A stretch of 64,000 nucleotides of DNA, from contig SKIF01000051.1 of NCBI GenBank assembly GCA_007116575.1, positions 1 through 64,000 of the forward strand, in the 5' to 3' direction. Made by a program: the position numbers and the translations under genes. The DNA comes from Paracoccaceae bacterium. GTDB taxonomy: Bacteria; Pseudomonadota; Alphaproteobacteria; Rhodobacterales; Rhodobacteraceae. Below are positions 19,063 to 20,997 of the stretch, in pieces; the stretch's first letter is position 1; each line of letters opens with the position of its first letter. Under the pieces are notes generated by a model that was not told the DNA's origin, did not search any database, and saw only the letters and a list, made by a program, of their open reading frames with translations.

Positions 19063-19385
19063 GCACAGCTCGTCCAAGGATTGCGATCAGGGAAAGTACC
19101 ACCATCCCGCAGATTGCAATCGGTACGAGGCCGGGTTTACGGGGCCTGTGGGACGTGCACGGAATTTGTCCGGCTAACTGCCGCAGCACCGCGCGGAGAA
19201 CCCGTTGCCCCGTTTCGAAATCCAATCCGGCGCGCACAATGGCGGAGCATGCCACACATGGCATCAGCGTGTGCGCTGAAGCGCTTCTGCTCGATGCAGG
19301 ATTAACCAGCACCGAGCAGAGTCCTGACACGTTCCAACTTAACGGCCCACGCTGGACAGAGTTGGATCAGCGATGCGAAGTGGTC

Positions 19386-20642
19386 TTACAAGACGGCCTG
19401 AACCGCGTCTTCTTCTTCTTCATCCTCGTCAATATCGAACCACTCGTCATCATGGTAGACGTGCCCGAAAGAATTCAACAAGTCCTCAATCGTGTCACCG
19501 GTATTGTCGAGCAGACCGTCGCCGCCGGCACCCACATTGCCAAGTGCATCGCCAAGGCTCTGCCCCAGTTCAGAAACGGTTGTGTTCAGTGAGGACCCTA
19601 AACCCAGCTTCCCCAAACCAAGGCCGTCTGTCAGCCCTTCGACCGTGTCACCCGTGTTGCCGAGCAGATCGGACACCCCGTCGCCAACACTCTCTACCGT
19701 GTTGCCTAAAGTGTTACCCAATCCAGTGAGGATTGAATTCAGATTGCCGCCCAGATTCCCGAGAAGTCCCCCGCCAGTGCTCGGGTGCGTCACCGGCACA
19801 TCCATGTCGTCATCGTCCATGTCGGACATGTCATCCATGTCCTGATCGTCCGCCTCGTCCATCATCGGTTCAGACGCGAAAGGGCTGTCGATCTCGATGA
19901 CCGTGCCATCGTCGAGTTCAATTGTCGCACTGATGATGGCGGTCGCTGGATCCGTGATGACGGGTTCATCCGGAAACGCAGCGGCAACACCATCCAGAAC
20001 TGCCTGAACCTGTCCTTCAAGCAGAGCAAAGTCAGGTTGTGCGGGGTCGAAATCATCCGGGATGTCGGGGATGTCAAAGAACTCCGGGTCGAAGCCATCA
20101 ATCAAGACGACCTCGAACGAGACTGTCACAACATCACCGAATTCCATTTCATCGTCGTGATCATCCTCATCTACTGGATTCTGGTCCTGTTCATCCACTG
20201 GATGATGACCAGTGTTGCCCTGCGGTTTGTGACCTGCAAGCAGTGACCCGTTGAGCCCGCCAAGCAAATCTTCGATGGTGTTGCCGACATTGTCCAGCGC
20301 CTGCCCGCCGCCATCGCCCACTATGGTGACGACATCATCGGCAGTGCCGCCAAGGTCCGTCAGGGTGTTGTTGAGTCCAGCCCCCAGTCCAGTCTTGCCA
20401 AGACCAATCGACTCTACCGTAGATTCTACGGTGTTGCCGACATTATTCAGTAGCCCCGAAGCGCCTTCGCCCGCGTTTTCGGTCACGTTCGAGATCGTAG
20501 AACCGAGATCCGTGACAAGTGTGTTCAGGTTCGAACCCAGATTGCCAAGTAATCCGCCACCACCTTGCGACCCGCCAAGCAAGCCGCCATTGCCAAGCAG
20601 CCCACCGAGCAGACCGCCGTCGCTATCATGCCCCTTGGTCAC
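19386..20642 (-). CDS. Gly/Leu-rich plus Asp-rich repeat protein of unknown function; ORF track start is GTG, possibly extended to 20740 by -1 frameshifting
   Basis: Two ~103-aa GLLGNLG..NLN... repeats flank a central acidic domain; C-terminus DEDEEEEDAVQAVL. Confidence 0.75.
   Translation of the reverse strand: MTKGHDSDGGLLGGLLGNGGLLGGSQGGGGLLGNLGSNLNTLVTDLGSTISNVTENAGEGASGLLNNVGNTVESTVESIGLGKTGLGAGLNNTLTDLGGTADDVVTIVGDGGGQALDNVGNTIEDLLGGLNGSLLAGHKPQGNTGHHPVDEQDQNPVDEDDHDDEMEFGDVVTVSFEVVLIDGFDPEFFDIPDIPDDFDPAQPDFALLEGQVQAVLDGVAAAFPDEPVITDPATAIISATIELDDGTVIEIDSPFASEPMMDEADDQDMDDMSDMDDDDMDVPVTHPSTGGGLLGNLGGNLNSILTGLGNTLGNTVESVGDGVSDLLGNTGDTVEGLTDGLGLGKLGLGSSLNTTVSELGQSLGDALGNVGAGGDGLLDNTGDTIEDLLNSFGHVYHDDEWFDIDEDEEEEDAVQAVL
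19464..19772 (-). repeat. Second copy of the internal ~103-aa repeat
   Basis: GGLLGNLGGNLNSILTGLGNTLGNTVESV...GLGLGKLGLGSSLNTTVSELG...LLDNTGDTIEDLL parallels 20247-20558. Confidence 0.8.
20247..20558 (-). repeat. First copy of the internal ~103-aa repeat
   Basis: GGLLGNLGSNLNTLVTDLGSTISNV...SIGLGKTGLGAGLNNTLTDLG...ALDNVGNTIEDLL. Confidence 0.8.
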
Positions 20643-20674
20643 ATGGATTGTACCTTCGAGATGGGCTTCTGGAC

Positions 20675-20740
20675 TCAGGTTATCCGGGTGACTGCTGATG
20701 CCTTTTTTACATTCACCCCTTTGAACAGACGCAACACCAT
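20675..20740 (-). other. Short 5' ORF (MVLRLFKGVNVKKASAVTRIT) with a strong SD, containing an in-phase A_AAA_AAG slippery heptamer
   Basis: Minus strand ...TTAGGAGAAGTG-ATG GTG TTG CGT CTG TTC AAA GGG GTG AAT GTA AAA AAG GCA...TGA; the -1 frame at AAA AAG enters the 19386-20642 ORF. Confidence 0.6.
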
Positions 20741-20997
20741 CACTCTTCTCCTAATTTAAAGTGTAGTCTCAAAGGAATCTTTTTGGGCCTTGGCCGTCAA
20801 GATATTGCTGTCTCAGATTCCTGAACAGTCTGTTTCAGAGTGTTTTTTTGAGCTTGGGTGAAACTTGCGTGGCGGCCTGCTCGTTATTACGGGCCTGAGT
20901 GAAATAGCGGCTGCAAAATCGCCTTCAACCGGGCCATTCCCTCTCGGGCATCAGAACGGTCGGCTGACTCAAGAACGACAGTTGGCAAAGTGATTCG

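Follow-up and report, generated by a model that had tools for sequence, protein, structure and literature searches.

The locus and its two reading frames

We studied a 64-kb window (the whole stretch of DNA that was analysed) from a Roseinatronobacter-type bacterium, in which an accessory segment (19063..20997), absent from relatives, separates the convergent carB and mauG-type peroxidase genes. In the closest relatives only about 20 bp separate these two genes, whereas here they lie 1.94 kb apart; the extra DNA has a lower G+C content and holds a 418-aa Gly/Leu/Asp-rich ORF that opens at a GTG (19386..20642, minus strand). For the portion of the segment from 19063 to 19400, the genus offers nothing similar apart from a 23-nt match. 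The TGA inside the carB matches of two genomes (G012 and G021) is just a natural stop that comes slightly earlier.

Ahead of the ORF, the minus strand carries an ATG at 20740 that is one base out of step with it. This start is preceded by a Shine-Dalgarno (SD) sequence, AGGAG (20748..20752, minus strand), whose duplex with the anti-SD amounts to -7.5 kcal/mol; the initial annotation had both the AGGAG and the ATG right but gave AAGTG between them, where the spacer is really AAGAGTG (7 nt). As that annotation described, the frame opened by this ATG (frame 0, MVLRLFKGVNVKKASAVTRIT, 20675..20740, minus strand) ends at a TGA (20677-20675) after 21 codons and on its way reads GTA AAA AAG, i.e., an A_AAA_AAG heptamer in phase (20702..20708, minus strand; six A's at 20708-20703, then G 20702), probably the place where either a single base was lost or ribosomes slip by -1. 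The sequence AAAAAAG, or its complement CTTTTTT, occurs nowhere else on either strand of the 64 kb. The -1 frame runs without a further stop from a TAG at 20753 through the whole of the 418-aa ORF, so that a -1 step at the heptamer, which stands at codon 13, does lead into this ORF as had been claimed, with NVKK-GISSHPDNLSPEAHLEGTIHVTK as the junction (spanning peptide ...NVKKGISSHPDN...) and a full product of 452 aa. Scanning the -1 frame from GTG 20642 back to TAG 20753 revealed no ATG, GTG or TTG 5' of the GTG.

Codon usage was scored against the usage of the window genes and that of the ORF itself. By this measure, the best-scoring frame is frame 0 on the 5' side of the A-tract and the -1 frame on its 3' side, i.e., two coding frames are joined by a one-base step at the tract. 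The stretch of 60 nt that separates the tract from the GTG (20643..20702, minus strand; GISSHPDNLSPEAHLEGTIH in the -1 frame) is both stop-free and high in codon score, a combination that 0.25% of copies with shuffled bases attain (joint p about 0.0025), which suggests that it is coding. The 11 frame-0 codons before the tract form a short stretch, and 13% of stop-free shuffles score equally well. GTG 20642 is preceded, 10 nt 5', by an AAGG and pairs with the anti-SD at only -4.0 kcal/mol (-7.5 for ATG 20740), in agreement with its earlier description as a weak start on which the ORF would otherwise depend. Given the codon score of the 60-nt stretch and this difference in anti-SD pairing, the gene probably once started at ATG 20740, and GTG 20642 is less likely to have been its original start. 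The N-terminus MVLRLFK bears a weak likeness to MSLLRKL and MSFFKKL of two relatives.

A small domain family in Roseinatronobacter

The middle of the ORF (19839..20150, minus strand) encodes a domain of ~100 aa, shared with three Roseinatronobacter proteins, whose structural model has a predicted beta-beta-alpha-beta-beta order (mean pLDDT 78). A Gly/Leu/Asn-rich arm is present in two copies flanking this domain, as repeats about 0.8-1.0 kb apart, and is predicted, at low confidence, to be helical. Neither Pfam nor NCBIfam holds a family for the protein; in the PDB no relative was found by sequence or by fold, with no significant match to the domain model; and tblastn searches of phages and plasmids, together with viral contigs, gave no matches to the gene. 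Weak PHROG matches to phage tape-measure proteins were set aside, as they cover the Leu/Gly/Asn helical repeats, where they probably reflect composition. The ~100-aa domain represents an undescribed and rare family, and the combination of a helical arm with an acidic domain would, by its composition, fit a structural protein that is secreted or associated with the cell surface.

The distribution of this domain is patchy: only three other genomes carry it, all of them Roseinatronobacter, namely G028 (JAIUNA010000265.1), G020 (SLAT01000188.1) and G022, and no credible further member was found among 395 genomes of the order. The gene is missing from most species. Weak matches within the genus (E 0.02-0.4) were mostly glutamyl-tRNA synthetase-like, MlaD-like or of other kinds, the only real one being the G020 member (L008), and an order-level match in G120 was dropped since it overlaps a methyl-accepting-chemotaxis-like frame. 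In G020, G022 and G028, the copy lies between the convergent genes ftsH and mfd, which adjoin each other, with no copy, in other species. Like the window protein, these spacer proteins combine the ~100-aa domain with a long helical arm and acidic segments and are encoded between convergent genes; they differ in having arms built of Lys/Glu-rich or apolipoprotein-like helices, whereas the window arm is Gly/Leu/Asn-rich, occurs as a copy on either side of the domain and is encoded at the carB-mauG locus. All four members (window 19063-20997, L003, L008 and L103) are located between convergent housekeeping genes that have a short gap in most relatives, which suggests that insertions have happened more than once at sites of this type; neither flanking repeats nor mobile genes were recognised at the four loci.

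The members differ in their state of preservation. That of G020 is intact (MSLLRKLSAKKHS...) but only distantly like the window gene at its N-terminus. The G022 member (L103; G022:C1, about 1278100-1279400, minus strand), found in a 100%-complete genome of 6 contigs, reads MSFFKKLAATKLNKAVEL-TAG-KDLAEK..., and beyond this TAG, at codon 19, an open constrained frame of about 266 codons continues, with no usable start soon after the TAG. In the G028 member, a single in-frame TAG lies between the helical arm and the domain, at codon 144 of the listed ORF (L003 1456-1458; L097 about 1780-1782). As two of the three other members are broken by an in-frame TAG, lesions are common in the family, and with the window gene included three of the four members are interrupted exactly once. 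Neither G022 nor G028 yielded a suppressor tRNA(CUA) when searched for one. Across 274 codons, the G020 and G022 members differ at 55 first, 38 second and 141 third positions, giving a dN of about 0.20 and a dS that is saturated, 5' as well as 3' of the TAG; from this pattern of substitution we conclude that the family was under constraint. An A7 run is also present in the intact G020 member, at about codons 22-24 (L008, about 1139-1147), so that 5' homopolymers recur in the family.

Signals around the heptamer

An internal SD-like element, AAGGGGTGA (20713..20721, minus strand), precedes the heptamer: the 3' end of AAGGGGTG lies 5 nt ahead of it, at the distance first noted, and the AGGGG is positioned 8 nt before its second base, within the 6-17 nt range established experimentally for stimulatory SD sequences (PMC4066793). 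An SD-like sequence 6-17 nt upstream is also found at 19% of coding positions. The pairing of AAAGGGGTGAA with the anti-SD reaches -12.5 kcal/mol, exceeding both the initiation SD (-7.5) and the dnaX SD (-7.6), and a pairing as strong and within range occurs at 0.5% of coding positions and at none of 440 positions near gene starts. Immediately 3' of AAGGGGTGA, the third frame contains a start-stop pair, ATG TAA (20712-20707), which could act as a ribosome trap.

Downstream of the heptamer, the hairpin that had been called weak comprises only 4 bp, and we found no structure beyond chance, the folding being that of shuffled sequence (z -0.14 to 0.15). A 55-nt hairpin at a distance of 10 nt conforms to a published hairpin rule, as do 54 of 60 random positions. 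In the three genomes of the genus that were searched for tRNAs (G000, G022 and G028), tRNA-Lys(UUU) was the only tRNA-Lys found, by a search that missed tRNA-Tyr and is hence not exhaustive. Comparison with the homologues did not bear out conservation of A_AAA_AAG and the frame step, the heptamer being absent at the 5' end of all three.

The A_AAA_AAG class is the most shift-prone heptamer class in E. coli. In that organism, a background of 0.05% is raised at most ~tenfold by heptamers with no stimulators, and heptamers aided by the moderate IS911 stimulators reach up to ~112 times a background of 0.04% (PMC4066793); on the basis of these rates, our estimate for slippage at the window site is a yield from well below 1% up to a few percent.

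Origin of the frame step

The reading we favour, with a probability of about 0.55 (here as elsewhere a judgement and not a computed value), is that of a disposable accessory gene frameshifted by an indel and perhaps leaky. The gene belongs to a small Roseinatronobacter family, with a long helical arm and an acidic beta-beta-alpha-beta-beta domain, that has repeatedly been lost or interrupted. Translation would originally have run from ATG 20740 (MVLRLFKGVNVKK-GISSHPDNLSPEAHLEGTIHVTKGHDSDGG...), until one base was lost, most likely an A from an original A7 run, leaving most ribosomes to stop at TGA 20677 and to produce a 21-aa basic peptide. The in-phase A_AAA_AAG would then be an automatic by-product, as GTA AAA AAA GGC minus one A gives GTA AAA AAG GC, and for this reason the phase of the heptamer is not evidence for programming. 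Any full-length protein would be owed either to weak initiation at the GTG or to a few percent of leaky -1 slippage, in which a minority of ribosomes, their 16S rRNA paired with the internal SD, may shift at A_AAA_AAG and thereby produce the 452-aa protein. The layout of the frames, the coding character of the 60-nt stretch, the patchy distribution and the broken relatives are observed, while the indel (as opposed to selection) behind the frame step and the leakiness of the gene are inferred. Several observations favour an indel. Coding signal is present 5' and 3' of the A-tract, in a different frame on each side, the N-terminus weakly recalls those of two relatives, the gene is absent from most species, and two of the three other members have one TAG each in an otherwise open frame, one of them in the 100%-complete genome. 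An alignment of about 17 kb of neighbouring genes with those of the closest relative, G031, revealed no frame breaks, and the contig is therefore not error-ridden. Moreover, singleton fs-genes with no conserved site usually represent indel mutations or sequencing errors (PMC3711429). Weighing against an indel, a search for a second genome of the species found none and the ancestral A7 was not seen; the internal SD, above 99.5% of coding positions, would be an unexplained coincidence; the 418-codon ORF has no second lesion; and the best-covered relative pair points to strong constraint on the gene.

Programmed -1 ribosomal frameshifting of the dnaX type, in which tandem tRNA-Lys slippage helped by AAGGGGTGA would yield a 452-aa protein alongside the 21-aa peptide, appears to us unlikely but worth serious thought. 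It would account for a heptamer of the best class that is in phase and unique in 64 kb, for the strength and placement of the internal SD, and for a -1 frame that is coding 5' of the GTG, and the site is like the E. coli dnaX signal in its in-phase A_AAA_AAG, its upstream SD-like element and the single tRNA-Lys(UUU) found. However, the SD spacing is 7-8 nt here and 10 nt in dnaX, and, unlike dnaX, the window site has no strong downstream hairpin beyond chance, is not conserved, and shifts at codon 13 into a long ORF rather than to an early stop. Moreover, a heptamer lacking stimulators would give a low yield, its phase is equally explained by an indel, and the family is often broken. Of the dnaX-type proposal in the initial annotation, the layout and the original ATG start hold and the mechanism is possible; with no relative carrying the motif and no downstream structure exceeding chance, it is not the likeliest reading. 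The window gene also resembles the singleton fs-genes among the GeneTack classes (PMC3711429) in having a single homopolymer frame step, an accessory gene, an unconserved site and relatives that are also broken, but differs in the very strong internal SD that lies beside the step here. With three of the four members interrupted exactly once and the rest of the frame constrained, one may also picture an undescribed small family whose expression is held down by recoding, either close to the 5' end or at the boundary of the domain, i.e., by -1 slippage here and by amber read-through in G022 (codon 19) and G028 (codon 144), an idea that we regard as improbable.

Plain initiation at GTG 20642, with the upstream SD-ATG frame as a short leader ORF or a chance occurrence, is a doubtful alternative, somewhat less credible than dnaX-type programming: the GTG is a legal start with its AAGG, and the 418-aa ORF contains the entire shared domain, but its SD is weak, the 60 nt before it look coding in the ORF frame, and the TGA of the leader, 32 nt ahead, is too distant for tight coupling. 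An assembly or sequencing error, whereby the true tract would have seven A's and the gene would be intact, is very improbable even though the genome is a draft of 142 contigs and a single homopolymer indel would suffice, as the neighbouring 17 kb is free of frame breaks. Tracts of 6-7 bases, moreover, are seldom miscalled in short-read assemblies. Hardly more probable is slipped-strand phase variation, with A6/A7 switching turning the gene off and on; a homopolymer at the frame step, an often interrupted family and a possible secreted or surface protein (from composition only) would suit it, yet A6 is shorter than the 7-nt indicator tract (PMC3711429), and the relatives are interrupted by TAG codons, not by changes in tract length.

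A programmed shift at this site would count among the rare bacterial -1 frameshifts that lie outside dnaX and mobile elements; it would be driven mainly by an unusually strong internal SD, and the protein family would be new. If the shift is not programmed, the site would serve as a caution that heptamer phase alone cannot separate recoding from an indel: an in-frame A7 followed by G will, on losing one A, always leave a textbook in-phase A_AAA_AAG. On either reading, the locus describes a domain family that is rare and often broken.
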